48,767 bases of DNA, taken from positions 1 through 48,767 of the forward strand of contig REDJ01000200.1 in the NCBI GenBank assembly GCA_007693555.1, given 5' to 3'. This DNA is from Bacteroidota bacterium. GTDB lineage: Bacteria; Bacteroidota; Bacteroidia; Bacteroidales; UBA7960. Under the pieces are notes generated by a model. It was not told the DNA's origin, made no database searches, and saw only the letters and a program-made list of their open reading frames with translations. The translations under genes were made by a program, and so were the position numbers. How positions within the stretch are numbered: position 1 is the stretch's first letter; each line of letters starts with the position of its first letter. This document shows, one piece after another, positions 2,845-48,486 of this stretch.

Positions 2845-2882
2845 ATGTATATTTTTTATTTTTAATATCATTTTACCAGGTT

Positions 2883-5800: not shown

Positions 5801-5978
5801 CGGTCGTGGTACCCAATGTTGTTCCTTCAATCATAACAGTTACTCCGGGCAATCCTAACCCACTTTCATCTGCTACTTTTCCCCTTACAGTCTCCGGGCC
5901 GTTTTGACCCGGAACTATCAGGGGAACCAAAAACAACACCCAAATCAACCAAAACCTATGTAAATTGAATTTCTTCAT
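2883..5978 (-). CDS. SusC/RagA family TonB-dependent outer-membrane transporter
   Basis: This 1031-residue protein imports oligosaccharides across the outer membrane using TonB energy. A signal peptide covers about residues 1-24. A carboxypeptidase-regulatory-like beta-sandwich follows (about 30-110, with GLPGVTVMIEGT and TDMDGNYTLNI). Next is the plug domain with the SusC signatures VVVGYGIQRKVDVSGAVSSV, IRIRGIGSINSS-like and PLYIVDGVP, then a C-terminal beta-barrel of about 800 residues ending in an aromatic residue (FNLGVQFSF). There is no N-terminal STN domain, so it is not an anti-sigma-linked type. It is followed at once by SusD. Substrate specificity cannot be read from the sequence. 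Confidence 0.95.
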   Translation of the reverse strand: MKKFNLHRFWLIWVLFLVPLIVPGQNGPETVRGKVADESGLGLPGVTVMIEGTTLGTTTDMDGNYTLNIPENIQEPVLSFRFLGFTPLKVPVDNQTRIDVTMREDVKTLEEFVVVGYGIQRKVDVSGAVSSVSGDQLRNLPVAGVDQALQGRASGVNITHNTGMPGEGVNVRIRGIGSINSSNDPLYIVDGVPTVDALSTLSPNDIESVTILKDAASAAIYGARANNGVILITTRRGISGAPRIEVSSQMGFQQHGRLTPMTNRDKYVEIYNEAANNDNAFIDNPRFHRNLISSEMAATLPDVDHLAEIFRRGLIQNHNIAVSGGTDELTYMVSANMFQQEGIIIGSHYDRYSGRLSLNSKINDNITLGSNINMARSDNDIIGSSGDGFGGNGGSVVRYAFFRTPPIPVRKDDGEYVDLPSHPALFGDGYNPVGLADKMNNNIQQNRLFGDVNAQIRILPQLHFSSVLGMDRTDFYQRRFNENWGTNKRINNPNSLNISNGFYQSLTASNVFSFNETFGGKHNVSAILGTEAIRNNGYTTNSTQRDFPDQEDRLVFLGNGLGSVVVSEGRWANTLLSLFGRLNYNYDNKYYLSSIIRRDGSSRFSPDNRWGTFYSFSGAWRIDMEDFMADNYFFDILRLRAGYGAIGNQEVGNYAYSDQISPNFNYPFGGIMNTGYAISVLGNRNLQWETSTQLDVGLDVSMMQGRIYMELGYFRKITANMLVKEPIPPSAGYASPAWVNNGEILNEGVEMELTWRNSIGELSFELTGNAAYLHNEVLSLAAPIVGGRIDHGVFATRTEVGFPVGSFFLYEMDGIFQNNLEIITSAYQGVNIRPGDVRYVDQNGDGFINELDRVHVGSAIPKYTTGFQTSFNYRNFDLSMFWHGAFGHKIYYQVATDIEGFYRPFNVTMRYFDERWTGEGTSDTQPRASWSAKANNTRPSTRFLEDGSFLRLKNLQVGYTLPANTSQRLGLRNARIYFLAHNLLTFTRYPGLDPEMTTSDNSREEGDAAAGIDWGTYPLAVSFNLGVQFSF

Positions 5979-6009
5979 ATTTTTAAATTTTTTTGAATTA
6001 AATAATCAG

Positions 6010-7740
6010 CTATTGTTTATTTCGAAATGCAACAAAAACATCTCCAGCCATTATCAATCCATCCTTCTTTGTAAGTTTTGCTTCCTGGGGTATCTCAACA
6101 ATGAGCCTGGCTTTGCGCCCTTCAACTATGACATCTGAACTGGAAGTCACATTTTCCGAAAGAATTTCACCAGATATTACATCATATAAATACACAGGAT
6201 CACCCTGATACAAATAATTTATTGTTTTATCTTCTTCGTAAGGATTATAAATCAGATACGTTGGATATGCATCATTTCTGAAAAAATCAGTAGCCAGGCA
6301 ATCCAATCTCAATATTTTTTCAACATTGGTTTTTTGAATAATCGAGCCAAAAATACCCACATGTGCCGAACCGTATAAGCTGAATTGAGAGACCTCAGGA
6401 TTGCCGTCAACCCAAAGAGGTCCGTCTCCCACAGCCACAGGGCTAACCCCTTCAAATTCTGGGCGTTCAAAAAGATCTTCTTTTATAAGTCCTTCGTAAC
6501 CTATTACATTTCTGGTTATATTCATATATTGCGGCAATGACTGATGATTTTCAGGAATTTCATTGGCATAAAACAAGCGTGCTGCATTGGCAGCATTTAG
6601 CATCCATTTGCCTATGGTTTCGGCATATCGGGGATCGTAGCGTACCATTGGAACCAATGACCAGGCCATATCAAAAGTGTTCATCAGGAAAGCAAATCCG
6701 CCATTGTGCGACCAGCTTCCCTGCAAACCATGCACATCAAAATCTCCCCACCTTTCATTAATAATTCCCCAGCCGTAGCGTCCATCTTCTGCATGAGTGC
6801 CATCAAATGTCCAGTCGAGAATGCGGTGGAAGTCATAGTCAGTCCCATGTTCAGCATTTAACCTGGCTGCCACCAGGGCGCCAAAGGGCATCAGCACTTC
6901 GTAAAACCGGCTTTCCTGCTGAGCAAGCAAAGCTTCAATGGCAGATTTAGCCCCCTGAAGGTATCGTTCATCTCCAAACTTTTGATAAGCAGCAAGCAAC
7001 ACCCATGCATGACCTGCTGCAGCATCCTGCTGAAATGGGATATGGCTGCGTTTCCCTTCCATGACTGAATAGTCAAAGAATGAAAAATCGTAATTCCCTG
7101 CCAAAACCGAATCCGCCTTAAAAAACTGTTCGGCTACAATTCTCATGATACTATCAGCTCTTTCTACACCTGGGAAAAGGTCAGATACGGCAAAGTACAA
7201 TACATTAGGAAAGACATCATACCACCAGTCGCGGGCATATCCACCTCCTAAATGACCTACCCTTTCAGATGTATTGTTCATTACGATATTCCAACCGTTA
7301 TCGCTGTTGAAATAGTTTTGTACCATTTTTACATAGTTAAAACCATCCTGGTCAGTTTTATCGATACCAACCAATCCAGCACTCATAAGTGCACCAAGGC
7401 TGTTTATTGCTTCATGAAACTCGCCTTGATGTACTTCAGAGCCTTGTCGTAAATCACCTATGGCAGTAAACATACCAAAAGTCAATTGGGGGAAATTCCT
7501 TTGATTATCATCCAGCCAAATCAGGGGAAGATATTCTCCCTTTGCATCATGGTCAAACACATAACTGTCATAATTCTTTGTCATTTCTTTCCAGTCAAGC
7601 ATTTTATAGGGTTCCGGTAGAAAAGGCATGGTTTCTATCCTGCTAATACTAATCTGTTCAACACTTTTATCAGTGCTGCACGACATGAAAACGAACAACA
7701 CAGCAATAAATAGCATTAGCAGTTTTAATTTTTTATTCAT
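6010..7740 (-). CDS. Lipoprotein of an unnamed alpha/alpha-barrel glycosidase-like family
   Basis: This 576-residue protein has a lipoprotein signal with Cys21. Its body matches the N-terminal 540 residues of the protein at 10392-13613. Shared blocks, in order, are MPxFPxPYxMxDWK, GIDKTDQ, DWWYxxxPN, a WG...W(G)xxDxHGL segment, GS(A/S)HVG and TYLxYNP(Y/F). The helical content, with repeated W and acidic clusters, suggests an (alpha/alpha)6-barrel like those of many glycosidases and lyases. A short beta-rich C-terminal part (about 490-576) follows. I do not recognise a numbered CAZy family. Conserved acidic residues in the WG...DxHG block are catalytic candidates. Location in the locus suggests periplasmic or surface glycan processing; that is inference. 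Confidence 0.6.
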   Translation of the reverse strand: MNKKLKLLMLFIAVLFVFMSCSTDKSVEQISISRIETMPFLPEPYKMLDWKEMTKNYDSYVFDHDAKGEYLPLIWLDDNQRNFPQLTFGMFTAIGDLRQGSEVHQGEFHEAINSLGALMSAGLVGIDKTDQDGFNYVKMVQNYFNSDNGWNIVMNNTSERVGHLGGGYARDWWYDVFPNVLYFAVSDLFPGVERADSIMRIVAEQFFKADSVLAGNYDFSFFDYSVMEGKRSHIPFQQDAAAGHAWVLLAAYQKFGDERYLQGAKSAIEALLAQQESRFYEVLMPFGALVAARLNAEHGTDYDFHRILDWTFDGTHAEDGRYGWGIINERWGDFDVHGLQGSWSHNGGFAFLMNTFDMAWSLVPMVRYDPRYAETIGKWMLNAANAARLFYANEIPENHQSLPQYMNITRNVIGYEGLIKEDLFERPEFEGVSPVAVGDGPLWVDGNPEVSQFSLYGSAHVGIFGSIIQKTNVEKILRLDCLATDFFRNDAYPTYLIYNPYEEDKTINYLYQGDPVYLYDVISGEILSENVTSSSDVIVEGRKARLIVEIPQEAKLTKKDGLIMAGDVFVAFRNKQ

Positions 7741-7790
7741 ATTTCACTTGTTTATTTTGGACGATAAATAACTTATTTCTATTGAAATTC

Positions 7791-9086
7791 TCAGATTTCA
7801 AGTTTGGGAGCTTCAAGATCAGGGTTATCCTTTCTCACCTTATCTATGGTACTATTCGTATGTTTTATAATATTTTTTGCCAGCGGAACAGATAACAATT
7901 GAATTGTGGCAATAATCAGTACAGAATACCTGAGAGCAACTTCTTCTGAAACATAGAAAGCAAGGTAAATAAACAGAACAAGTCCCATGAATCTGCCGAT
8001 ATATAACCCAAACTCATGGTTGAAGATATAGGCAAACTCGCTTCTGTTTTCCTTTACCGACAGCACATCAATGATGCGCATCTGAATGGGGAAGTATGCA
8101 ATATCATGCAAAGGCATAAAAATGACCTTTGATAATACAAATATAATAACTCCAAGAGCAGAAAACAATATTTGATTCATCAGTGAGCCTATAAAAAATA
8201 CGATAATACCTCCGGCGAAAATATAAAGACGATGCTGAGGTTTAGCAGTTCTTCCCAGGATATACAGTAAAAATGCTGTTAAAATACCACTGATACTTTG
8301 AATGGTACCAAGTGATCCTTCATCACCCACAAGACGCATAACCAAAATAGCAGGTGCTGTTACCAGGTATCCTTGCACAGAACCCTTTAATGCTGCAAGA
8401 ACAAGGAATTTATACCATAAGTAATCATATTTCCAGTGTATAAATTTCTTTTGTTTGGGGTTTCTGAACTTACCAAGGTGTATTACAATACTGGACAGAA
8501 TAGTTAGTACAATTACCGCATAGGCTATTATCCGATAAGCTACCTGTATATTACCTTCAAACCACCCGAGGTGTGTTGTGCTTACCAAAAACCACCCAAC
8601 AATGGCAGGTACAAGAATAAAAGTAATGGTGTAGAAAAAGGTTTCAACACCGAAATAATAGTTACGGTTTTTATCATTTGTAGTATCCAGGGCAAGAAAA
8701 TCACGGTTTGCCCAGAAAAATCCAAAAGAGGCACCCATTATAAAACCGGCTACGGCAACGCCTGCAAATGTCATTATACTGAGCGACATCATAAACAGCA
8801 TAGAAATACCACTCAACAGCATTCCAAAACTATACAGATGTGAAACATTGATTTTTCTCAGCAGGAAACCGTTAATTAAAAAAGTAAAGGGAATTCCTGT
8901 ATAAACACACAACTGATATACTGCTACCATTGCAGGATTATCAGCACTTCGCATGATATAGGCTCCGACAAAAATATCAATAATGGGTAAAACAAAGGCA
9001 TATATCATGTTTGTAATCAACACCAGCCGCATCAAGCGTGGCATCGACATAAAAAAACGAAATTCTCCAAATAACTTGTTTATCAT
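7791..9086 (-). CDS. MFS-type inner-membrane transporter
   Basis: The 431-residue protein is hydrophobic throughout, with about 12 membrane segments and a short hydrophilic loop near residue 205 (KFRNPKQKKFIHWKYDYL), as in the central loop of major facilitator transporters. There is no signal peptide. It lies between the lipoprotein barrel enzyme and the cytoplasmic GH130 enzyme, which fits import of oligosaccharides or disaccharides from the periplasm to be split inside the cell. Pairing of an MFS carrier with GH130 is well known in mannan-processing loci of Bacteroidetes. The transported sugar cannot be told from the sequence. Confidence 0.8.
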   Translation of the reverse strand: MINKLFGEFRFFMSMPRLMRLVLITNMIYAFVLPIIDIFVGAYIMRSADNPAMVAVYQLCVYTGIPFTFLINGFLLRKINVSHLYSFGMLLSGISMLFMMSLSIMTFAGVAVAGFIMGASFGFFWANRDFLALDTTNDKNRNYYFGVETFFYTITFILVPAIVGWFLVSTTHLGWFEGNIQVAYRIIAYAVIVLTILSSIVIHLGKFRNPKQKKFIHWKYDYLWYKFLVLAALKGSVQGYLVTAPAILVMRLVGDEGSLGTIQSISGILTAFLLYILGRTAKPQHRLYIFAGGIIVFFIGSLMNQILFSALGVIIFVLSKVIFMPLHDIAYFPIQMRIIDVLSVKENRSEFAYIFNHEFGLYIGRFMGLVLFIYLAFYVSEEVALRYSVLIIATIQLLSVPLAKNIIKHTNSTIDKVRKDNPDLEAPKLEI

Positions 9087-9168
9087 TCTTTAGTTTTTTA
9101 AAACATAAAAGTTCAACATTAAGAATCCGGACTTTCATAATAGACCCGGTTTAATCATCAAGATACTG

Positions 9169-10212
9169 CTATTTTAATGTGTTAAGTATTTCACGAATAG
9201 AAAACTCTGCACCACAAATAACCTCATCGCTAGCTCCGTAATACATGGTTATTTTATCTCCATCAACGAAATGCCCGTTTGTAAATACCACATTACCGAA
9301 AAACCCTGTTTGCTCATAGTCCATAACAGGTTCCATTATGGGATCAACACTCCGAGCCAGTACTTTTGACGGATCTTCTTTATCAAGCAAGAGTGCTCCA
9401 AGGCAGTAACGATGTTCTTTATTTGCACCATGATAAATTTCGAGCCATCCTTCCCCGGTTTCAATGGGGGCAGCTCCGGCACCAACTCTGGCACTGTCCC
9501 ACATACCCTTGCGCGTAACTGCAATGCACTTATGGTTACCCCAATGCAAAAGGTCCGGTGACTCGGCAATCCATATATAATTGCCACCTAACTCCGGACT
9601 GCTGGGACGATGTAATGCATAATATTTACCTTTTATTTTTCGCTCAAAAATGGCACAGTCTTTATTATGTGGCGGAAATATCATACCCCTGCGTTCATAA
9701 TTTTTCCAGTCATGGGTGTATATATACCCTACACCAACAGCTATTTCCGATACTTTTGTATAAGTGAGATGGAAACCGTCTCCCATTTCTGTTACACGGC
9801 AATCTTCTATGCCAAATGATTCCAGAGCACCTTCACCGGCAATCAATGGATAAGCCGGGTCTTCTCTGAAAGTTTTTCCATCAGTACTGTATACAAGCCG
9901 GAGATGTGATAGTGTAGTCAGGTAATTTTTTCCTTTATAGGCAATTACCCTGGGATCGGAGGCATCAAGGTCGGGATCATTCTTGTCAAAACTCAATATT
10001 TCTATTTTACCTTCTGCATTAAACACAGGCACTTTTATGCTAGCTTCGTCCTGCTCTGTTCGCTCGGCTACCCTGCATAGCAGCCATATCTTACCATCAT
10101 AGCGAAATACACCCGGGTTGAGCAAACATTCAATCTTCATCCCATCTATACTGGGTTTTAAATCTTTAGGACCCAGTAAAGGATTTTCCTTAGATCTTTT
10201 GGCTATATCCAT
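9169..10212 (-). CDS. GH130 family beta-mannoside phosphorylase or mannosidase
   Basis: GH130 enzymes split beta-mannosides, most by phosphorolysis and some by hydrolysis, in a five-bladed propeller fold. I start at the Met at 10212 (347 residues, MDIAKRSKENPLLGP), because an in-frame Met at 10275 adds residues unlike the family and lies upstream of a promoter-like CAAATGTA (10241-10248). Family blocks seen are ENPLLGPKDL, LLNPGVFRYDGKIWLLCRVAER, SDPRV, GIEDCRVT, CAIFERKIKGKYYALHRP, WDSARVGAGAAP, WLEIYHGAN and YYGASDEVICGAE. There is no signal peptide, so it acts in the cytoplasm downstream of the MFS carrier. The usual GIEDPR block has Cys in place of Pro. Phosphorylase versus hydrolase cannot be settled by eye. 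Confidence 0.88.
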   Translation of the reverse strand: MDIAKRSKENPLLGPKDLKPSIDGMKIECLLNPGVFRYDGKIWLLCRVAERTEQDEASIKVPVFNAEGKIEILSFDKNDPDLDASDPRVIAYKGKNYLTTLSHLRLVYSTDGKTFREDPAYPLIAGEGALESFGIEDCRVTEMGDGFHLTYTKVSEIAVGVGYIYTHDWKNYERRGMIFPPHNKDCAIFERKIKGKYYALHRPSSPELGGNYIWIAESPDLLHWGNHKCIAVTRKGMWDSARVGAGAAPIETGEGWLEIYHGANKEHRYCLGALLLDKEDPSKVLARSVDPIMEPVMDYEQTGFFGNVVFTNGHFVDGDKITMYYGASDEVICGAEFSIREILNTLK

Positions 10213-10240
10213 TCTTTTCGTTTTTGCTTTATATCTTACA

Positions 10241-10248
10241 CAAATGTA
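10241..10248 (-). promoter_or_regulatory. Possible -7 element before the GH130 gene
   Basis: The minus strand reads TACATTTG, a full match to the Bacteroidetes -7 consensus TAnnTTTG. It would start transcription about 20 bases upstream of the Met at 10212. No well-spaced -33 TTG is present, so this may be chance. If real, it would be an internal promoter of the locus. Confidence 0.3.
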
Positions 10249-10391
10249 ATTTGCAATCTCCGCAAACGTGTGCACTGGGTTTTCAAATTTGTATATTATA
10301 TTATCAAACTTATCATAACCTTTAAAATGAGTAAATTAAAACAGTTCTTTTCCGGTTATTGAGAATACTGTATACAGAAATGGAAAAATAA

Positions 10392-39151: not shown

Positions 39152-39772
39152 ATGAATATTTTCAAAAAAATTATTCATTTTTTGAAGCCACCTCTAAACT
39201 GGAAGTTGTCGGTAATTATTCTCATGGGTATTTTTACCGGTATTTTCTTCCTGGTGCTTCATTTATCAATGGCAGCATCCTATTTGTCAGATGAGCCTAA
39301 AACATGTATTAACTGCCATGTTATGTACCCCCAATATGCATCATGGACTAAAGGCAGCCATGGTCGCGTTGCCACCTGCTCCGATTGTCATGTACCACAG
39401 GATAATTTTTTCAGGAAATACTGGACTAAAGCTACCGACGGATTATGGCATGCAACGGTTTTTACCATGCGTTGGGAACCCCAGGTAATTCAAATCAGAA
39501 ATCCCGGCATTAATGTAGTTCAGGAGAACTGTATCCGCTGCCATATTGATCTTGTTGATATGACGCAGTTGGTAACTGTAACCGGATCAATGGCGAGGAA
39601 AGATGAAGGAAAGCTTTGCTGGGATTGCCATCGTGAAACCCCACATGGCACCGTAAAAAGTCTCTCAGCTGCACCCCACGCACTGGTAGAAAGATTGCCA
39701 TCAACCATGCCTGACTGGCTCAATCAATTTTTTGACAGGTCAAAGACTCAGAACAACCAGCAAACTGAATAA
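39152..39772 (+). CDS. nrfH: Cytochrome c nitrite reductase small subunit NrfH
   Basis: The 206-residue membrane-bound tetraheme cytochrome passes electrons from menaquinol to NrfA. It has one N-terminal membrane helix (about 18-42) and four CxxCH haem motifs: CINCH (Cys52), CSDCH (Cys76), CIRCH (Cys127) and CWDCH (Cys156). The first is followed by VM, matching the CxxCHxM arrangement known for the quinol-side haem of the family. It is 45 bases upstream of nrfA and clearly co-transcribed. It starts a respiratory pair behind a good promoter. Confidence 0.95.
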   Translation: MNIFKKIIHFLKPPLNWKLSVIILMGIFTGIFFLVLHLSMAASYLSDEPKTCINCHVMYPQYASWTKGSHGRVATCSDCHVPQDNFFRKYWTKATDGLWHATVFTMRWEPQVIQIRNPGINVVQENCIRCHIDLVDMTQLVTVTGSMARKDEGKLCWDCHRETPHGTVKSLSAAPHALVERLPSTMPDWLNQFFDRSKTQNNQQTE

Positions 39773-39817
39773 ACCAAAGATTTAAATTTTAAAAGCACAA
39801 CTCTAAAATCATATCTT

Positions 39818-41260
39818 ATGAAGACAATCAGAGAACTCACTGAGAAAAAACCATGGTTAAACTGGGTTTTGTTTTTCGCTACCGTAATCATTGTGTTTTT
39901 TATTGGCCTGCTTGCATCATCTATCGTTGAGCGCCGGAGCGAAGCACAACTCTATTTTCAGATGGTTAGTCCTATTCCTGAATGGGAACCTGACAATGCT
40001 GTATGGGGTGAAAATTTCCCAAGACAATATGAGAGTTACATGAAAACTGCTGATACATCTTTCAGGAGTAAATATGCCGGTTCAGTAATGATTGATTACC
40101 TGGAGCAATACCCTGAACTTGTTGTTATGTGGGCAGGTTATCCTTTTTCAAGAGATTACAACCAGGGTCGTGGACATTATTATGCAGTGACTGATGTAAG
40201 GAATTCACTGCGCACCACAGGACCTATGCCAGCAACATGCTGGACATGTAAAAGTACTGATGTGCCCAGACTTATGAATGAAATGGGTGTGGCTGAATTT
40301 TACGCAGGCACACTTATGGAATTGGGACCCGAAGTACAAAATCATATTGGTTGCCAGGATTGTCATGACCCGCAGACCATGAATCTTCGTATTACACGTC
40401 CAGCGCTGGCTGAAGCATTTGCCCGCCAGGGTATTGATATTGAAAAGGCAACCCATCAGGAAATGCGCTCATTGGTATGTGCTCAATGCCATGTAGAGTA
40501 TTATTTCGGTGAAAATAATTACCTGATATTCCCCTGGGATAAAGGCTATTCGGCTGATGAAATGGAAGCATATAAGGACAGTGTGCAACATACAGACTGG
40601 GTACATAGTTTAAGCCGTGCTCCAATGATTAAAGCACAACACCCCGACTATGAGCTTTATAAAACAGGTATACATGCCCAGAGGGGAGTATCTTGTGCCG
40701 ACTGCCACATGCCTTACAAACGTGAAGGTGGAATGAAATTCACCTATCACCATATTACAAGCCCATTGCAAAATATTGAAGCAACCTGCCAGGTATGCCA
40801 CAGGGAGAGTGAAGCAACTCTGCTTGCCAATGTTTATGAACGGCAGGATAAAATTTCGGAGCTCCGCCGTATTGTGGAAGGAAATCTAGCCCGCTTACAT
40901 ATTGAGGCCAAACATGCATGGGATGCCGGAGCTACTGAAGAAGAGATGAAGGATGTGCTGCAACTTATAAGACATGCACAATGGCGCTGGGACTGGGTTG
41001 CTGCTGCCAATGGTTATGGCATCCACTCGCCCAATGAAGCACTCAGGGTATTGGGTACATCCATCCAGAAAAGCCAGGAAGCCAGAATTATTCTTGCTAC
41101 CATTTTTGCAAAATACGGCAAAGACTATCCCATTGAACTACCCGACATATCAACCAAGGCAAAAGCACAGGAATACATTGGTCTGGACATGGATCAGCAA
41201 CGCCAGATGAAAAGGGATTTTAAAGAAAATGTGTTGCCTGGATGGTTGTCGGCTAAATAA
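39818..41260 (+). CDS. nrfA: Ammonia-forming cytochrome c nitrite reductase NrfA
   Basis: The 480-residue pentahaem enzyme reduces nitrite to ammonium with six electrons in the periplasm. The N-terminus has a hydrophobic helix (about 14-36) that may be an uncleaved anchor. The active-site haem has the family's CWTCK motif (Cys141, Cys144, Lys145), and four CxxCH motifs follow: Cys179, Cys221, Cys293 and Cys324. The active-site Arg (VRNSLRTTG), Tyr (CHVEYYF) and His (IKAQHPDYELYKTGIHAQRG region) blocks are present. No cytochrome c maturation genes (ccsBA) are next to it, although such genes are often linked to nrfHA in this phylum. The gene ends at a strong terminator. Confidence 0.97.
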   Translation: MKTIRELTEKKPWLNWVLFFATVIIVFFIGLLASSIVERRSEAQLYFQMVSPIPEWEPDNAVWGENFPRQYESYMKTADTSFRSKYAGSVMIDYLEQYPELVVMWAGYPFSRDYNQGRGHYYAVTDVRNSLRTTGPMPATCWTCKSTDVPRLMNEMGVAEFYAGTLMELGPEVQNHIGCQDCHDPQTMNLRITRPALAEAFARQGIDIEKATHQEMRSLVCAQCHVEYYFGENNYLIFPWDKGYSADEMEAYKDSVQHTDWVHSLSRAPMIKAQHPDYELYKTGIHAQRGVSCADCHMPYKREGGMKFTYHHITSPLQNIEATCQVCHRESEATLLANVYERQDKISELRRIVEGNLARLHIEAKHAWDAGATEEEMKDVLQLIRHAQWRWDWVAAANGYGIHSPNEALRVLGTSIQKSQEARIILATIFAKYGKDYPIELPDISTKAKAQEYIGLDMDQQRQMKRDFKENVLPGWLSAK

Positions 41261-41340: not shown

Positions 41341-41943
41341 TTAGTTCTCTGTTAATGAGGTTTGTTCAAGAATCAGATCAAAACTCACTTCTATTTCATC
41401 ATTTACTTTAACCAATCCAAAACCCTTTTGTGGTGGTTCAAGGCCAAAATCCGAAAACCGGAAAACTTGCTCTCCTCTGAGAATACTGTATTGATCATCC
41501 AGAAATTCAAGCTCACTGCTAATGAAATACTTGTGCGATTTACCCGCCAGTGTAATTTTGACGTACCCCTGGGCTTTACGGGTATTCTCATGCAATTGTA
41601 CTTCTTTAAGATTAAGGAATTCAATTTGGATTTCAGGATATTTATCATGCTTCAATGTGTTTCTGAAGTCATTATTCATGATCCTGTTTCTACAATCAAA
41701 GGTTTCAACTTCAATAAAAACACTACCATGAATTTCCCACTTTTCGCTATAAGGATCCCAAAGCTCTCTTATCATATCAGATCCACTTTCATAAGCTGAA
41801 CCACACTGAAATGTGTTCACATTGGTAGTTCCGTTAATCTGCAAAGAGCTTGCCCCTGTTACATGCCAGAAACGGGTTATTTCCTTGTTGGCAAAAACAG
41901 TTAATGAAAGTATTATCAGGGAAAACGAGACAAATAAACGCAT
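41341..41943 (-). CDS. YceI-like exported protein
   Basis: The 200-residue protein has a signal peptide (MRLFVSFSLIILSLTVFA) and the general layout of YceI lipocalin-like beta-barrels: an N-terminal WHVTGASSLQINGTTNVNTF block, a middle with VETFDCRNRIMNNDFRNTL (the Cys-rich variant of the YceI dNrmd-type motif), KHDKYPEIQIEF and a C-terminal VNDEIEVSFDL. YceI proteins bind isoprenoid lipids in the periplasm. Two Cys (Cys47, Cys81-like) may form a disulfide. It follows another yceI-like gene on the same strand with 117 bases between, so it may be read from the same sigma-54-like promoter. Confidence 0.75.
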   Translation of the reverse strand: MRLFVSFSLIILSLTVFANKEITRFWHVTGASSLQINGTTNVNTFQCGSAYESGSDMIRELWDPYSEKWEIHGSVFIEVETFDCRNRIMNNDFRNTLKHDKYPEIQIEFLNLKEVQLHENTRKAQGYVKITLAGKSHKYFISSELEFLDDQYSILRGEQVFRFSDFGLEPPQKGFGLVKVNDEIEVSFDLILEQTSLTEN

Positions 41944-42060
41944 ATTGTTGAGGTTTAAAGAATCAGCTAAATAATCACTTATCGGGAACTGGCTTATATT
42001 TTATTAAATTTACTTCTGGATTAATTTCAAATCTCAAAAAATAATTGTTTGGAACCAAAA

Positions 42061-42648
42061 TTATTTGGCCCTTCCTGAAGGATTAAAGTTTACGTCAAAT
42101 GCGATCTTCAGTTCATCACCGGTCCTTACTGTTCCGAGCAAGGCGGTTGGAGGATCAACATCAAACTGAGTGAATTTTATATTGTGTGCACCGGAAAACT
42201 GAACAGAATTTCCGTTTACTGTGTAATCGGTGCGAAGGGTTACCGGAAGGGTTGTTCCCGCAATGGTTAGATTTCCGGTTGCCAGAACTTGCTGAGATGT
42301 AATGTTACGAATACCTGTTAACTCAAAGCGAACATAATCGTGTTTATCGGCATCAACAGCGCTGTAAGCTGTACGATCCATTCTGTTATTCCCGCTTTTT
42401 AAGGATTTTACAGGCAAATCAACACGCAGATTTTGAATTTCTTTAATTTCACCATTCTCCACAACAATGGTTGCCTGACCACGGGCACCTTCAGAAACCA
42501 TGTCCCAGTCGTGAAGCGTAGAAGTACCTGAAACTTTAAACTCCTGGCTGGAGCTAAGCTGATAACCATTCTGCGCAGTTAAAACTGCAGAACTGAATAA
42601 GAAAAAAGTTACCAGTAGTAACGAAAACAGATTTTTATTGAAACGCAT
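42061..42648 (-). CDS. YceI family periplasmic lipid-binding-like protein
   Basis: I start at Met 42648 (195 residues), which gives a clean signal peptide (MRFNKNLFSLLLVTFFLFSS, cut after VLTAQ); the frame is open to 42675. The mature part is a clear YceI domain: FKVSGTSTLHDWDM, LRVDLPVKSLKSGNNRMDRT split at SLKSGNNRMD, DADKHDYVRFELTGI, ATGNLTIAGTTLPVTLRTDY split at TIAGTTLPVTL, and FTQFDVDPPTALLGTVRTGDEL split at DPPTALLGTV. The likely promoter is the sigma-54-like element at 42732-42747, with palindromic sites further upstream. YceI folds hold isoprenoids such as quinones, which would fit a nearby respiratory system, but that link is inference. Confidence 0.88.
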   Translation of the reverse strand: MRFNKNLFSLLLVTFFLFSSAVLTAQNGYQLSSSQEFKVSGTSTLHDWDMVSEGARGQATIVVENGEIKEIQNLRVDLPVKSLKSGNNRMDRTAYSAVDADKHDYVRFELTGIRNITSQQVLATGNLTIAGTTLPVTLRTDYTVNGNSVQFSGAHNIKFTQFDVDPPTALLGTVRTGDELKIAFDVNFNPSGRAK

Positions 42649-42731
42649 TAGATTAATTTTTATAATTGAATTCATCGGTTTTTAATTTTCAAGTAGGTTA
42701 AACATATTTTTGTTGTTTCGGCCCTCTCATT

Positions 42732-42747
42732 TGCAAATCTTATACCG
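42732..42747 (-). promoter_or_regulatory. Sigma-54-like promoter for the yceI-like gene
   Basis: The minus strand reads CGGTAT-AAGAT-TTGCA. The invariant GG and GC are 10 bases apart as required, and TTGCA is perfect for the -12 box; the -24 box matches only in GG and A. It lies 84 bases before the start codon. Confidence 0.45.
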
Positions 42748-42844
42748 TATTCAGGTATAAAAAAGCTAAAATATTATCATACAGCGCCAACGCTTTAGGT
42801 ATGAAGTTAATAAGAATTTTGATAAATAGCAAATCGGTGCCCGA

Positions 42845-42883
42845 TTGCGGAATTGTATAAGAAAAAGTTGCGTAATTCCGCAA
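42845..42883. repeat. Perfect 10-bp inverted repeat with a 19-base spacer
   Basis: TTGCGGAATT (42845-42854) and AATTCCGCAA (42874-42883) are exact reverse complements. The right half is also part of the palindromic site at 42869-42882. The repeat may join two regulator sites. Confidence 0.7.
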
Positions 42884-42902
42884 AATGTTGTGGATTTCCG
42901 CA
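42869..42902. promoter_or_regulatory. Pair of palindromic activator-like sites, 20 bp apart (near yceI)
   Basis: TGCGTA-AT-TCCGCA (42869-42882) and TGTGGA-TT-TCCGCA (42889-42902) are 6-2-6 imperfect palindromes of the same motif. Their centres are exactly 20 bp apart, two helical turns, so proteins on both would sit on one face of the DNA. They lie about 125-155 bases upstream of the yceI -24 box, a normal enhancer distance. Confidence 0.5.
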
Positions 42903-42995
42903 GTTTCAAAATCATTATTCTATCACTATAGCATTTATTTATAATTCATCTGGTGGATGAATTTTGGATAATCTATGTTGGGAATAACGTGAATT

Positions 42996-43029
42996 AGCGG
43001 AAAATCGTCAAAAAGAACGGAAACCCGCA
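42996..43029. promoter_or_regulatory. Second pair of palindromic sites, 20 bp apart (near the barrel gene)
   Basis: AGCGGA-AA-ATCGTC (42996-43009) is a half-site and AACGGA-AA-CCCGCA (43016-43029) a fuller copy of the same motif. Centres are again 20 bp apart. They lie about 90-120 bases upstream of the sigma-54-like element at 43118. Confidence 0.42.
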
Positions 43030-43117
43030 ACAAAAACCACTTGAAAAAATGAATTAAATGGAACGATTAGCTCATACATTCCTGATAACATGAATGTTAG
43101 GAAATTCAGACGTTTTC

Positions 43118-43133
43118 TGGCATATGCTTTGTC
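43118..43133 (+). promoter_or_regulatory. Sigma-54-like promoter for the outer-membrane barrel gene
   Basis: TGGCAT-ATGCT-TTGTC matches the consensus TGGCAC-N5-TTGCA except at two places; the -12 GC is GT here. It lies 97 bases before the start codon. The overlapping TATGCTTTG could instead be a mis-spaced Bacteroidetes -7 element. Confidence 0.38.
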
Positions 43134-43229: not shown

Positions 43230-44546
43230 ATGAAACAAAACAGAATCACCATTGCAGCTATTTTATTTATAGCAGTACTCAAGGTTCATGGTCAACAACC
43301 AGAGTTGATAAATGAAGAATCAACTTTTGTGAGTGACTATACAGAAAACCTTAATTACAACGGCATAGAGATTGCGAATGTAAATAATATTAAATTTTTT
43401 ATGGGTCTTCATACTGTAGCCCGATTTCAGGCCCTCACGCAGGAGAACGTTTTTGTGCTCTCAGGTGGAGAGTTTATTGAACCTGTTGAATTGGGCGCAG
43501 GAGCACAAACCTCCTTTGCCAACCTGGAGTTCCGCGTAAACCTAAGTGATGACATTGTGGTTTACTTCGACGGACTACTGGCCACCCAAAGGCACCCAAC
43601 TCAATGGTGGGGTGGAAATGGTTACATATACTTCCGCAGAATGCCTGAAAACTCTTTCCTTTCTGTCTTCAATGGTATTTTTAATTATATTGATTTAAAG
43701 GTGGGTAATTTTTATGCTGACTTTGGTGATGAGTGGTATCGCCGCTCTATGAATGGTGACGTGCAGCGTAATCCCCTTGTAGGAACCCCAGTAGTTTCGA
43801 CCCTTGGTACCGAACCCGGATTTGAAATCATTCATAAGCGCCCACGCTATGGATTAATGGTTGGAGCTGGTACCGGAGCCCCCGAACAAGACATGAGAGC
43901 TGACAGGGGCTATTCTTTTCGCACTAAGGCATGGGTATCTCCCATTGAAAACATGTATCTTTCAGGTTCTTACTACACTACCAATCATGAAGCAGGAGCT
44001 GCACGTGGCACCAATCTTTTCCGCAGAGAAAGGTTAGGAGGTTCCTATTCAAGTGTATGGAATCTTCACAATGACAACTCCGGAAATGGAGAAGGCCCTG
44101 GCCAGGTTCGTATTGGAGATGGTAAAGAGCTGGATGCATTTCAATTCGACCTTACATGGAGACCTATCCCCACAACACATTTTAAGGCGCATTACGGTCT
44201 GGCTAATGCATCAGGGCCCAATCCTGCCACCACCGACGTCGGAACTGAAGAGTGGGCTTATTATGGAGCAGATATTACACAATACATCCATCGTAGTATT
44301 TACCTTTCAGCCAGATATTCAGAAGCCAATGCTTCTCAATTTAGCAATGTGGCAGCAGGCTCAGTAAACAGGTTTCAGATAGGTGCCGGAGCATGGATTA
44401 CCAGCAGAATGCTCATGAAACTTGAGTATGTTACCCAGTCAGCAACAGGCTGGGACGAAGGGACTGTGGGAGTGGCTAACTTCGTTGATGTAGGGCGTGA
44501 TCCCAAATTCAGCGGAATTATTTTTGAAGCTTCATTTTCACTATAA
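43230..44546 (+). CDS. Outer-membrane beta-barrel protein, porin-like, family not recognised
   Basis: The 438-residue protein has a signal peptide (MKQNRITIAAILFIAVLKVHGQ). The mature part consists of alternating strands with many aromatic girdle residues and ends in FEASFSL, typical of an outer-membrane barrel. Phrases such as NLEFRVNLSDDIVVYFDGL, NYIDLKVGNFYADFGDEWYR split at GNFYADFGDEWYR, and YLSARYSEANASQF resemble porins that report a membrane-embedded monomer of about 16-18 strands. I cannot name the family or the solute. It stands alone between a sigma-54-like promoter and a strong terminator, divergent from the yceI-like gene and next to the sigma-54 activator operon, which may control it. 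Confidence 0.65.
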   Translation: MKQNRITIAAILFIAVLKVHGQQPELINEESTFVSDYTENLNYNGIEIANVNNIKFFMGLHTVARFQALTQENVFVLSGGEFIEPVELGAGAQTSFANLEFRVNLSDDIVVYFDGLLATQRHPTQWWGGNGYIYFRRMPENSFLSVFNGIFNYIDLKVGNFYADFGDEWYRRSMNGDVQRNPLVGTPVVSTLGTEPGFEIIHKRPRYGLMVGAGTGAPEQDMRADRGYSFRTKAWVSPIENMYLSGSYYTTNHEAGAARGTNLFRRERLGGSYSSVWNLHNDNSGNGEGPGQVRIGDGKELDAFQFDLTWRPIPTTHFKAHYGLANASGPNPATTDVGTEEWAYYGADITQYIHRSIYLSARYSEANASQFSNVAAGSVNRFQIGAGAWITSRMLMKLEYVTQSATGWDEGTVGVANFVDVGRDPKFSGIIFEASFSL

Positions 44547-44622: not shown

Positions 44623-45972
44623 CTAAAAATCAAGGCTGTACTTTTCTGCTTTTGTTCGAAATGTAGACAAAGGAATATTCAGAAGCCTGGCTGCTTTGGT
44701 CTTATTTCCACCACTTTTGACCATGGCAGCTTTAATGAGTTTAACTTCAGTAGCTGCCAGTATTTCCTCCAGATTCCATTGATCATTTACTTCAAGATTG
44801 TTATCGGAAATTTCAGGTTTAATAAATTCGGAAGGAATATCTGTCACCGTAATCTGGTTTCCTGTTGTGGTAAGTACAAGTCTTTCCATAAGGTTTCTAA
44901 GTTCCCTTACATTTCCCGGCCATTTATAGTTTTCCAGTATACCCAACGCATCCGGGTTAATTTGCAATGGCTTGCCTTGTGAAAACTCCGTTAGAAATCT
45001 GTTTACAAGTACCCTGATGTCATCTTTTCTTTCCCTGAGCGGTGGAATATGTATAGGAATAACATTTAACCGGTAAAAGAGGTCATCACGGAATTTTCCC
45101 TGGGAAATCAGTTTCTTTAAATCATACTTGGTTGATGACACTACCCTTACATCGATCTTTACAGCCTTTGTTGCACCAACAGGTTCTACTTCCTGTTCCT
45201 GCAGTACACGTAAAAGCTTCACCTGCAATTCCAATGGCACATCATCAATATCATCGAGGTAAATAGTTCCTTTATCAGCAATTTCAAATCGTCCTTTTCT
45301 GGATTTTTCGGCACCGGTAAATGCACCTTTTTCATGTCCGAAGAGTTCACTTTCGAAAACCTCACGGGCCAGAATGGCACAACTAACTTTAACAAAAGGT
45401 TTATTACTGCGGTTGCTATTATAATGTATTATGTTAGCAAGCATCTCCTTGCCTGTTCCTGTTTCGCCGGTTATTAAAACTGAAGCATTGGAATGAGCCA
45501 CTGATTGTACCAGTTCAAATATTTTCTTAACGGAGTCACTCTCACCTGCAAAGCTTGAAAAATCAAACTTTTCACTAATCTGGGTTTGCAAACGCAAATT
45601 ATCCTGTTTTATGTCGCGCAATTCGGCAACTCTTTTGGTCAGGTGCAAAATTTCTTCATTGCGAAAGGGTTTTGAGAGATAATCATAAGCGCCCAGTTTT
45701 AGTGCTTTAATGGCAGTATCAACTGATGCATAAGCCGTCATAACTACTACAAACGTATCAGGCGAAAGCTTCTTTACCTTCTCCAGCAGTTCAAGCCCAT
45801 CAATGCCCGGCATACGTATATCTGTAATTAAAAGATCAGGGTTTTCATCGGCTATCTTTTGCAATACCCCTGAAGCTTCAGCAAATTCAAAAACCTGGTA
45901 GCCTGCATCCCTGAGTTCATCAGCCAGGCTTACCCTGAGAATCCGTTCATCTTCTGCTAAAAATATCTTCAT
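44623..45972 (-). CDS. Sigma-54-dependent response regulator (NtrC family)
   Basis: The 449-residue regulator has a receiver domain (about 1-120; phosphoacceptor Asp51 in LLITDIRMPGIDG, KPF lysine at about 101), a sigma-54 activation AAA+ domain (about 138-375; Walker A GETGTGKE at 169-176, GAFTGA loop at 216-221, Walker B-like GTIYLDDIDDVP, arginine-finger region FRDDLFYRLNVIPIHIPPLR split at LNVIPIHIPPLR) and a C-terminal Fis-type helix-turn-helix (GGNKTKAARLLNIPLSTF). The GAFTGA loop is intact, so it should open sigma-54 promoters. Its gene overlaps that of the sensor kinase by 4 bases (ATGA), which shows tight coupling. The palindromic sites at 42869-43029 are its most likely targets in this window. 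Confidence 0.96.
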   Translation of the reverse strand: MKIFLAEDERILRVSLADELRDAGYQVFEFAEASGVLQKIADENPDLLITDIRMPGIDGLELLEKVKKLSPDTFVVVMTAYASVDTAIKALKLGAYDYLSKPFRNEEILHLTKRVAELRDIKQDNLRLQTQISEKFDFSSFAGESDSVKKIFELVQSVAHSNASVLITGETGTGKEMLANIIHYNSNRSNKPFVKVSCAILAREVFESELFGHEKGAFTGAEKSRKGRFEIADKGTIYLDDIDDVPLELQVKLLRVLQEQEVEPVGATKAVKIDVRVVSSTKYDLKKLISQGKFRDDLFYRLNVIPIHIPPLRERKDDIRVLVNRFLTEFSQGKPLQINPDALGILENYKWPGNVRELRNLMERLVLTTTGNQITVTDIPSEFIKPEISDNNLEVNDQWNLEEILAATEVKLIKAAMVKSGGNKTKAARLLNIPLSTFRTKAEKYSLDF

Positions 45973-47516
45973 GTTGATGTAAATGATTTTACCGGTAATA
46001 TTATACTCACTATGGTTCCTGAGTTTCTCACACTTTTAATTTCCATTTCTCCACCATGATCCCCAATGATATTCATGCTCACAGAAAGCCCCAACCCGGT
46101 GCCCTTTCCGGGCGGCTTGGTTGTAAAAAAAGGATCGTAAATTTTGGTCAGGTTTTCAGAAGGGATACCGGAACCGTTATCTTTTAACTCAATAAAGAAT
46201 TTTTCTTTATCATTTTCCATCAGGCCACAGCTTACATTTAATTCGCCGGAGATTTCAGGGTTTTGCCTTTTTCTATCGGCAATTGCATCAATGCTGTTTA
46301 ATACCAGGTTGAGAAAAACCTGTTCGAGCTGATTCTTATTACCAAGTATCAAAACATTGTAAGGGCAAGTGTTGAGAAAAACCTTAATCTTTTCCTTTTC
46401 TAGTCTGTGCTCTGCCAATGTTAAAGAATTCTTCAGTGCTTCTTTGGGATCCAAATCGTTTTTTTGATGATCGGGCTGCCGCGCAAAATCAAGCAGATTT
46501 TTTACTACCATCTCCATTTTTATGGCAGCTTCTTCCATCAAATCAAGGTACTTCGCAGCTTCCACGGTATTGCCCGGATTCTTCTTAATCCTCGATATGC
46601 AATGCATTATACCGGCGAGAGGATTATTTACTTCATGGGCTACTCCTGATGCCAGAGTACCTATTGAAGCGAGTTTTTCAGATTGTATAAGCTTTTTTTG
46701 TGTGGTTTCCAGCTCATCATAGGCTTTCTGGAGTCTTTGCACCATTTCATTAAAGCGCGAAACAAGAATATCAATTTCATCACCGGGCAAAAGTTTCATT
46801 ACCTTTTCCACTCGTCTTGGATAACGCGTAGCAGACATAAGTTTCTTTTCTCTAATGGATTGCATATCAAGATTATCGGCTATATTGCTGATATCTTTCA
46901 CCGGACTGGTTACCAGGTAAGAGAAAATAAAGGTCCCGCCCAGGCTAATTACAACAAGTGTAAGAATCATTCCCAGTAATGTGCGAGTTGCCTGGTTAAG
47001 TGTTCTGCCAATATTATCTTCGGTAAGACCAACCCTTAAAAACCCAATATTGCCTTCCAGCAAAGGAATAGAGATATCCCTGATAAGCTTATCACTTCCC
47101 TGAAATTTTACGTGAGCGGAGATAACTTCATTACTCTGCTCACGTTGGTGAATATCATGCAGGCCATCAGGCACCAAACCATCAAAAGTATGGGCTTTAA
47201 TCCGACAATCAATATCACAAACCAATATATATTCAATACTTTCATCTGCAGCTTTTACTTCGTCGAGCAGAACATTCAAAGCAACAATATCATCAAAAAG
47301 AATATAATTTATAGCCCTTTCTGATATAATTTGAGACATAAAAACGCCTTTCTCCTGTAATTCTTCCTCGAGTGAAGAAAATATAATACGGTGAACCAAT
47401 ACTACATTGATACTTCCGAATAACACCACAACAACCACCATACCAATGGTAAACTTCCAGAAGAGTGGGATTTTTACCCTCTCAGTCTCTTTACTATTTA
47501 ATGATATTTGATTCAT
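45969..47516 (-). CDS. Membrane sensor histidine kinase partner of the sigma-54 regulator
   Basis: The 515-residue protein has a first membrane helix at about 21-42, a periplasmic sensor domain of about 135 residues (about 45-180, with VDIDCRIKAHTFDGLVPDGL-like dCache/PAS-type phrasing split here as CDIDCRIKAHTFDG), a second helix (about 182-206), HAMP (VTSPVKDISNIADNL), HisKA with His294 in GVAHEVNNPLAGI, and HATPase (NLVLNSIDAIADR, DNGSGIP, GTGLGLSVSMNIIGDHGG split at NIIGDHGG). The HEVNNPL H-box is of the NtrB/HydH type. The periplasmic part could contact the binding lipoprotein encoded 10 bases upstream. Confidence 0.93.
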   Translation of the reverse strand: MNQISLNSKETERVKIPLFWKFTIGMVVVVVLFGSINVVLVHRIIFSSLEEELQEKGVFMSQIISERAINYILFDDIVALNVLLDEVKAADESIEYILVCDIDCRIKAHTFDGLVPDGLHDIHQREQSNEVISAHVKFQGSDKLIRDISIPLLEGNIGFLRVGLTEDNIGRTLNQATRTLLGMILTLVVISLGGTFIFSYLVTSPVKDISNIADNLDMQSIREKKLMSATRYPRRVEKVMKLLPGDEIDILVSRFNEMVQRLQKAYDELETTQKKLIQSEKLASIGTLASGVAHEVNNPLAGIMHCISRIKKNPGNTVEAAKYLDLMEEAAIKMEMVVKNLLDFARQPDHQKNDLDPKEALKNSLTLAEHRLEKEKIKVFLNTCPYNVLILGNKNQLEQVFLNLVLNSIDAIADRKRQNPEISGELNVSCGLMENDKEKFFIELKDNGSGIPSENLTKIYDPFFTTKPPGKGTGLGLSVSMNIIGDHGGEMEIKSVRNSGTIVSIILPVKSFTST

Positions 47517-47526
47517 AAATGGGGAA

Positions 47527-48435
47527 TTAGTCTAACAGTCTTTGTTTCATTTCCCGCACAGAGTTATAATTCTCATCTTCTCCTTCAATAAAACGGTCAA
47601 CCAATAAATCATCCAGAATTGAGCTCGCTTCAGTATTTGTATGCATTAAAAGGAATAGCTGCTTCAGTTGCTCTCTTTTTTCACCCTTAAGTCTTTGCGA
47701 AATTACTATCGGCGGATTTCCGTAATCAGGCGAAACTTCAATAATTCTTACTCCTTCAATTCTCTCGGGTTGATAAACTTTAAGATAATCAAAAATCAAC
47801 TGATTGATAGTTGCAGCATCAACAACTCCCTTTGCCACAAGCTGAATGGATATATCATGGCCATAGGTGAACATTGTAGATTCAAAAAAGCTATCATAGG
47901 TTTCATTAAAATCCTTCAGTCGGTGTAATGCATATAAATAGCCTGTATTTGACAGAGGATCGGTAAAAGCAAACCGGCTTCCTCTTAAATCTTCAAAACT
48001 TTCAGCAGCAAAAGCTTCAGAAGCAATTATATAGGCATTGTAATAGGGTTTACCTGCACTAACCGGCACTGCAAGAAGCTCAACATCTTTTGAATAATCC
48101 AATTCAACGTAAGCACCGGTGCAAATAAACGCAAAATCCAACTGGCCTGCTTCAAGCATCTGGTTAATCTCTGCATAGGTTTTTCTTTGGTGAAACTCAA
48201 TGGGATATCCCATCTCATCTGAAATATATTTGAAAATTTTCTCATAAGATTCATAAGTTTCACGGGGAGAAAGTATTGCTGATACTGCAACTTTAAGGGG
48301 ATTATAGATAGTATCGTCTTCAACTGCCTCTTGTCTCGTTCTATTGTTTTGGTCAATTTCAATTACTTCCCGGGGCTTGCGGTTACAGGCAGAAATTACA
48401 ATTAAAATAACAATGATCAGGTTTAATAATTTCAT
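47527..48435 (-). CDS. PhnD-like periplasmic oxyanion-binding lipoprotein
   Basis: I start at Met 48435 (302 residues), because MKLLNLIIVILIVISAC is a complete lipoprotein signal (Cys17); the frame is open to 48486 and the extra residues include a promoter-like element. The body matches the PhnD/phosphonate-phosphite binding family: PLKVAVSAILSPRETYESYEKIF split at SPRETYESYEKIF, YAEINQMLEAGQLDFAFICTGAYV split at GQLDFAFICTGAYV, and FTDPLSNTGYLYALHRL. Such proteins bind phosphonate, phosphite or other oxyanions. No ABC transporter genes are beside it; the next genes are a kinase and its regulator. It is therefore probably a sensor subunit, as AioX is for arsenite. The actual ligand is unknown. 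Confidence 0.88.
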   Translation of the reverse strand: MKLLNLIIVILIVISACNRKPREVIEIDQNNRTRQEAVEDDTIYNPLKVAVSAILSPRETYESYEKIFKYISDEMGYPIEFHQRKTYAEINQMLEAGQLDFAFICTGAYVELDYSKDVELLAVPVSAGKPYYNAYIIASEAFAAESFEDLRGSRFAFTDPLSNTGYLYALHRLKDFNETYDSFFESTMFTYGHDISIQLVAKGVVDAATINQLIFDYLKVYQPERIEGVRIIEVSPDYGNPPIVISQRLKGEKREQLKQLFLLMHTNTEASSILDDLLVDRFIEGEDENYNSVREMKQRLLD

Positions 48436-48459
48436 TTGCTTAATTCTTAACGTAAGTAT

Positions 48460-48486
48460 CAAACGTAAAGTTAGCAAGATTATCAA
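48460..48486 (-). promoter_or_regulatory. Promoter of the binding-protein/kinase/regulator operon
   Basis: The minus strand has TACGTTTG (48467-48460), a full -7 match, with TTG 16 bases upstream (48486-48484), a short spacer. It places the start site near 48454, about 18 bases before the Met at 48435, and so supports that start over the one at 48486. Confidence 0.42.

Follow-up and report, generated by a model that had tools for sequence, protein, structure and literature searches.

The intergenic region between a YceI-family gene and a porin-like outer-membrane barrel gene on a Bacteroidota contig (the window, meaning the whole 48,767 nucleotide stretch analysed) raises the question of how these two divergent genes are controlled. 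YceI a (42,061–42,675, minus strand; Pfam YceI E 1.3e-16) and the barrel (43,230–44,546, plus strand) are the predicted targets, and an NtrC/AtoC-type response regulator is encoded nearby at 44,623–45,972 (minus strand). The initial annotation had proposed that this one NtrC-family activator acts on both genes via sigma-54, a proposal that our comparison supports. The dyads and their spacing, the promoter elements at narrow distances, linkage to regulator orthologues in eight families, covariation with the recognition helix, a partial test in genome G069 and the presence of rpoN in the host genome (PF04552 E 4.0e-52 at G000:C203), all read from sequence, make it highly probable that the 44,623–45,972 regulator controls both genes divergently through sigma-54 from this intergenic region.

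Two pairs of 14-bp dyads were found where they had been proposed, the members of each pair having centres 20 bp apart. On the YceI side, TGCGTAATTCCGCA (42,869–42,882, centre 42,875.5; TGCGTA-AT-TCCGCA) and TGTGGATTTCCGCA (42,889–42,902, centre 42,895.5; TGTGGA-TT-TCCGCA) each carry one mismatch to the motif TGCGGA-NN-TCCGCA. On the barrel side, AACGGAAACCCGCA (43,016–43,029, centre 43,022.5; AACGGA-AA-CCCGCA) carries three, and AGCGGAAAATCGTC (42,996–43,009, centre 43,002.5; AGCGGA-AA-ATCGTC) is missed by a motif search permitting up to three mismatches, being a hybrid between the two half-site types described below. The initial annotation overlooked a fifth, half-conserved site (42,846–42,859, centre 42,852.5), in which only the TGCGGA half at 42,846–42,851 is kept; its centre is 23 bp from the next dyad, and it is a weak pair-model match (42,845–42,883, E 0.82). 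No strand is assigned to any of these five sites.

Taken singly, the motif is uninformative. With up to three mismatches the window contains 12 matches against 9.28 expected, and 27 of 100 shuffles reach at least 12, so there is no excess; across the genome, the degenerate single dyad with up to two mismatches gave 87 + 75 matches, compared with 18 + 11 for a reversed control. Lone weak copies are thus no proof, since single motifs occur at chance level in the window and are frequent genome-wide. The genome scan suggested in the initial annotation was too degenerate to be useful with the single motif. Pairs at 20 bp are rare: none of 300 dinucleotide shuffles equalled either window region. Pair model R2, whose training set of seven regions included both window regions, returned only the two window places from the 4.23 Mb host genome (E 2.0e-6 for the pair beginning at 42,869 and 6.8e-6 for that beginning at 42,996), the next match having an E value of 0.58. 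Under a broader model, R1, the window sites are weaker, with E values of 8.5e-4 for the barrel-side pair and 0.42 for the YceI-side pair. Autoregulation in the window genome found no support: none of the R2 places lies 5′ of the gene for the binding protein, a side on which fewer than 300 bases of contig remain.

Both promoter elements proposed earlier were also recovered. Facing the YceI genes, the sigma-54-like −24/−12 element CGGTATAAGATTTGCA (GG-N10-GC) reads on the minus strand from 42,747 to 42,732, with its −12 position 152.5 bp from the pair midpoint; similar elements occur at 151.5–154.5 bp in G002, G004, G015, G001 and G011. Facing the barrel gene, TGGCATATGCTTTGTC (43,118–43,133, plus strand; 119.5 bp) is weaker, as had been noted, being GG-N10-GT without the −12 C. 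Its barrel-side counterparts are TGGCATATGCTTTGC in G069, TGGCATATGCCTTGC in G015, TGGCATATGTTTTGT in G011 and TGGCATACCCATTGC in G001. The element in each region was taken to be the 16-mer with the highest score on the downstream side of the dyads, under weights that we set on the literature consensus. By score alone the window elements are equalled by 9% (YceI side) and 2.5% (barrel side) of shuffles, and across 22 regions the shuffle fractions range from 0 to 0.555. The evidence for sigma-54 is therefore the constant placement of the elements, since their scores alone are often unremarkable. In all of the 22 regions first chosen, the best 16-mer, selected by score only, fell within a narrow distance class, measured from pair midpoint to −12: 118.5–119.5 bp (four barrel regions), 129.5–133.5 bp (14 yceI regions) or 151.5–152.5 bp (four window-clade yceI regions). 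Twelve later regions gave 118.5, 130.5, 131.5, 139.5 (twice) and 150.5–154.5 bp (seven times), a count that omits a second orientation in G284, where the pair lies between a binding-protein gene and a cytochrome gene and the element towards the binding-protein gene is poor (39.5 bp). Seven regions from families f11, f32, f53, f56, f62 and f85 have a candidate element ending in GA rather than GC, scoring 9.5–10.5 of 15, and a fair sigma-54-like element also stands in a control operon in G047 that has no dyads.

NtrC-type enhancers consist of two dyads in helical register some 100–150 bp upstream of the −24/−12 element. The dyad layout here is alike, with a different motif and different targets. 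The best period over all 34 distances was near 11 bp (R 0.72, from related sequences), which suggests helical phasing of the dyads relative to the sigma-54 element. It does so only tentatively, because the steps between distance classes (12.5, 7.9 and 13.3 bp) are not clean helical turns; strict 10.5-bp phasing is not supported by them. Promoters of the −24/−12 class are described in Bacteroidetes in a study of Flavobacterium psychrophilum, where one is backed by a reporter and mutagenesis (PMC9723704); these belong to the same promoter class, serving other genes and other activators.

The regulator is accompanied by a conserved set of genes. Among the 59 genomes searched, 19 carry an orthologue with at least 50% identity, counting partial ones, and the complete order of binding protein, kinase, regulator, YceI a, barrel and YceI b was present at six of 20 loci (one with inserted genes); at most of the remaining loci the order was partial, in many cases because a contig end interrupts it. 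YceI a and the barrel are instead divergent in the window and in G015. In G001, too, the region upstream of YceI a has dyads in both orientations; its contig ends before any barrel gene, and we infer a divergent arrangement there. YceI b (41,341–41,943, minus strand; Pfam YceI E 2.7e-7) lies downstream of YceI a in relatives, with or without a barrel gene between them, and is probably the second gene of the target operon. There are two barrel types, that of the window and another approximately 25% identical to it, whose usual place is the gap separating YceI a from YceI b, for instance in G001, L090; no gene of this second type is present at 41,944–42,060 of the window, nor at the corresponding place in G015. 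As side observations, a SelR-domain (methionine sulfoxide reductase B) gene adjoins the barrel in G064 and a similar-looking gene lies near the G069 barrel (L195:227-808, L095:8418-9005).

The dyad pair itself was found beside an orthologous regulator in eight families of the order. The usual layout in relatives is the regulator gene, then two dyads 20 bp apart, then a sigma-54-like element. For the spacing analysis, 22 upstream regions were used; G009, G066 and G070, cut by contig ends, were omitted, and L111 was scored separately at a later stage. The half-site rule was written after some regions had been seen, and spacing formed no part of it. When spacings of 14–60 bp were scanned, the top score fell at 20 bp in 20 of 22 regions (tied in G059), the exceptions being the G030 yceI region (53 bp) and G017 (31 bp), and at most two of 300 shuffles per region matched the observed pair. 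The 20-bp spacing also came first in all 12 later regions, most of which had been found with a spacing-containing model. These regions are not independent trials, because they are related by descent. A scan of named genomes found one regulator at 55% identity (L111:4645-6823) and otherwise relatives at 37–46%. L111 has the same trio followed by tatA, a porin and an Fe-S subunit that resembles TtrB, DsrO and ArrB, all below curated cut-offs; despite its 55% regulator it has a best spacing of 31 bp and no convincing dyad pair.

Model R1 was built from the 22 regions with the 20-bp spacing, and without adjacency to the sensor cluster, as part of it. Over 98 genomes, at E ≤ 0.002 and beyond the training set, it found three places (a second copy in G030, G067 and G044), all adjoining the regulator. 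Weaker new matches in G035, G033 and G092 (E 0.009–0.018) had no sensor cluster nearby, and one in G001 (E 0.0105) lay beside one. Over 393 genomes of the order, R1 at E ≤ 0.002 identified seven new genomes, six with the match beside the binding protein-kinase-regulator cluster and one (G205) without it. Overall, nine of the ten new places at this threshold are beside an orthologous sensor cluster. At E ≤ 0.0105, a match occurs in 18 of the 19 genomes whose regulator is at least 50% identical versus one of 40 others, a comparison that is largely circular, most of the 19 being training genomes; the G009 contig, which is cut, has the regulator and no R1 match. Within the 226,047 bases of loci examined, 15 pairs scored at least 23, of which 12 were expected sites and three lay elsewhere. 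Four yceI/barrel operons lacking the regulator on the examined stretch reached only 18–20 of 28 at the 20-bp spacing. In G044, a stop codon breaks the reading frame of the regulator (L242:4352-5693), although a good dyad pair adjoins it.

The half-site sequence changes together with the regulator's recognition helix. The half-site core is TGCGG in the window's clade and GACGA in most relatives. Window-clade half-sites (10 regions) have T at −7 (28/40), G at −6 (33/40) and G at −3 (27/40), and the others (18 regions) have G at −7 (68/72), A at −6 (55/72) and A at −3 (59/72); C at −5 (37/40 and 71/72) and G at −4 (40/40 and 66/72) are common to both. The helix reads PLSTFRTK in the window clade (PLSTYRTK in G001). 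In the other genomes it reads PASTLKSR, PASTLKSK or something close to these, except that in G017 the helix is off the contig. This covariation amounts to one contrast on the tree, G069 aside. G069 provides a partial test of the switch, because its barrel is close to that of the window (81% identical over the 163 residues on the contig), yet its sites follow its own regulator type: the G069 regulator, on another contig than the barrel, is of the other type (54% identity), and three of the four half-sites at the barrel have GACG, matching this divergent regulator.

These observations bear on other readings of the region. The dyads could be operators of another regulator, NtrC-type or a repressor, with the linked regulator being a mere neighbour; the host genome does encode at least 28 proteins scored as related to the regulator, and similar dyads could be bound by some of these. 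We consider this improbable, however, given that the dyads accompany orthologues of the 44,623–45,972 gene in eight families and shift in sequence with its recognition helix, and that the G069 barrel, on a separate contig, has its own regulator's site type. A chance cluster of AT-rich inverted repeats is contradicted by the retention of the pairs in relatives, by the shuffles and by the R2 genome search; even with single degenerate motifs at chance frequency in the window, its probability is very low.

A further reading, slightly less probable than that of another regulator, is that sigma-A promoters mainly transcribe both genes, with the dyads modulating expression and the GG-N10-GC matches coincidental. 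Sigma-54-like elements at narrow distances in 22 of 22 regions argue against it, as does the barrel side of the window, which has no element of the type TTG-N17-21-TAnnTT(C/T); such elements are absent from 17 of the 28 regions scanned, two of which were cut at wrong boundaries. In its favour, the 11 regions that do have one exceed a summed expectation of 4.97, and on the YceI side a sigma-A-like TTG-N20-TAnnTTC lies between the dyads and the sigma-54 element (42,803–42,832, minus strand; coordinates derived from a 53.5-bp offset) and recurs in the same place, about 54 bp from the pair midpoint, in all six window-clade YceI-side regions (G000, G001, G002, G004, G011 and G015). Since this element is conserved, transcription could start from promoters of both types, and it may provide basal expression. 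Sigma-54 control of both genes by the linked regulator remains our preferred reading.

The regulator has the domains of the NtrC family, with a receiver (PF00072), an AAA+ domain (PF00158, Sigma54_activat) containing GAFTGA and a Fis-type helix-turn-helix (PF02954). Its assignment as NtrC-type in the initial annotation was correct; its membership in an AioXSR-like trio had been missed. The trio is completed by a sensor histidine kinase (45,969–47,516, minus strand), identified by Pfam and a conserved neighbour in relatives, and a periplasmic binding lipoprotein of the AioX/ArrX type (47,527–48,486, minus strand), with a lipobox recognised by eye and a phosphonate-binding-like Pfam match. It is the only such binding protein in the window's genome, and by sequence its closest solved structures are ArrX (E 4e-55), the arsenate sensor of Chrysiogenes arsenatis, and AioX (E 5.2e-36). 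Seven residues of the AioX pocket are listed in PMC5908839 (Tyr, Cys, Tyr, Ser, Ser, His, Asp). Six of these align in the window protein, and the second Ser is Thr. All 17 aligned homologues keep the pocket Cys, and in eight of the 17 the first Ser has given way to a second Cys.

AioR and ArxR belong to the AtoC type and work with promoters of the RpoN kind (PMC5908839, PMC6011840), examples being TGGCACAACGATTGCA in NT-26 (PMC6011840) and the putative TGGCAAGGCTATTGCT at arx (PMC5908839); ArrR is CitB-like and without an AAA+ domain (PMC5908839). By analogy, the window trio would work like AioXSR, because AioR and ArxR, unlike ArrR, are AtoC-type regulators with RpoN promoters and the binding protein is nearest ArrX and AioX. 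The likeness to AioXSR and ArxXSR extends to the order of binding protein, kinase and AtoC-type AAA+ regulator, the probable family of the binding protein and the RpoN-type target promoter; it is the NtrC-like regulator that separates the window system from that of ArrX. The target in AioXSR and ArxXSR is a molybdenum arsenite oxidase, whereas in the present systems it is either YceI with a porin-like barrel or cytochromes with DUF5777 barrels, and the operator is a 20-bp-spaced pair of GACGA or TGCGG dyads. No molybdenum arsenic enzyme genes were found among the 28 of 32 non-overlapping window ORFs of at least 100 aa that were scanned, and the three molybdopterin-domain places in G000 are all on contigs other than the window's. 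No account of the dyad/sensor system appears among the matches listed from the open-licence literature, nor is it mentioned in the accessible sections of PMC6549141 and PMC12316311, and we judge the system to be an undescribed variant of the AioXSR-like, sigma-54-coupled kind.

The window's barrel protein had no Pfam match up to E 0.1, Porin_O_P included, and no NCBIfam match. In its predicted structure (pLDDT 62, pTM 0.69), the phosphate porins OprO (1.5e-12) and OprP (1.9e-12) rank first among PDB matches, at a TM of about 0.56 and 13–14% identity, with general porins scoring only slightly lower. NrfH- and NrfA-type cytochromes of ammonia-forming nitrite reductase adjoin YceI b at 39,152–41,260, and likewise in G002 (L203). 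Despite this adjacency their membership of the system is not supported, none of the 20 regulator loci having an NrfH/NrfA match. Elsewhere in the window, SusD, a TonB-dependent receptor, an MFS protein and GH130 at 1,363–10,275 form a likely polysaccharide-use locus, and SusD/RagB and Por_Secre_tail families are represented, in keeping with a Bacteroidota host.

In other families and in G030, where part of the genes were scanned, the dyads are followed by cytochromes, ethylbenzene-dehydrogenase-like haem proteins, DUF5777 barrels and YceI. As for the signal, acr3 shares a contig with the sensor in G002 and G009, and arsD, arsR, an arsC-like gene, arsM and acr3 lie beside the barrel in G011 (L092:3594-6945). 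A general arsenic link is nevertheless weak: of 30 genomes, 16 have acr3 above its cut-off, among them 11 of the 19 that carry the regulator (at least 50% identity) and five of the 11 that do not. Arsenic is therefore a lead only, because acr3 is not clearly enriched in regulator-bearing genomes and a search of the window's genome did not find it. The ligand is most likely an oxyanion, which is a weak step in the argument, with an arsenic species as one candidate.

We infer the following course of events for the window. The ligand-binding lipoprotein (47,527–48,486) would signal to the histidine kinase (45,969–47,516), which would phosphorylate the NtrC-type regulator (44,623–45,972). The regulator would then bind each pair of dyads, which lie on about one face of the helix because they are 20 bp apart, and looping would bring it to sigma-54 polymerase, driving open complex formation at the −24/−12 elements of the yceI operon and the barrel gene. 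More broadly, and only tentatively, at slightly less than an even chance in our estimation, a widespread and undescribed AioX/ArrX-like three-component sensor in the window's order, probably Bacteroidales, drives a sigma-54 envelope electron-transfer/porin module comprising the cytochromes, haem proteins, DUF5777 barrels and YceI named above. Its signal may be a metalloid oxyanion. The window clade, having no cluster cytochromes, would have YceI and porin targets and would have switched jointly from GACGA/PASTLKSR to TGCGG/PLSTFRTK.

If this is true, the joint switch of operator and helix is a natural case of rewired regulator-site specificity, and the pair of regulator/operator variants would allow a change in Fis-type helix specificity to be probed via few residues and bases. 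Furthermore, the known range of arsenic-type three-component sensors would grow from arsenic oxidases to include a second kind of target module, and the YceI and unnamed porin genes of these little-known bacteria would gain a testable regulator and context.
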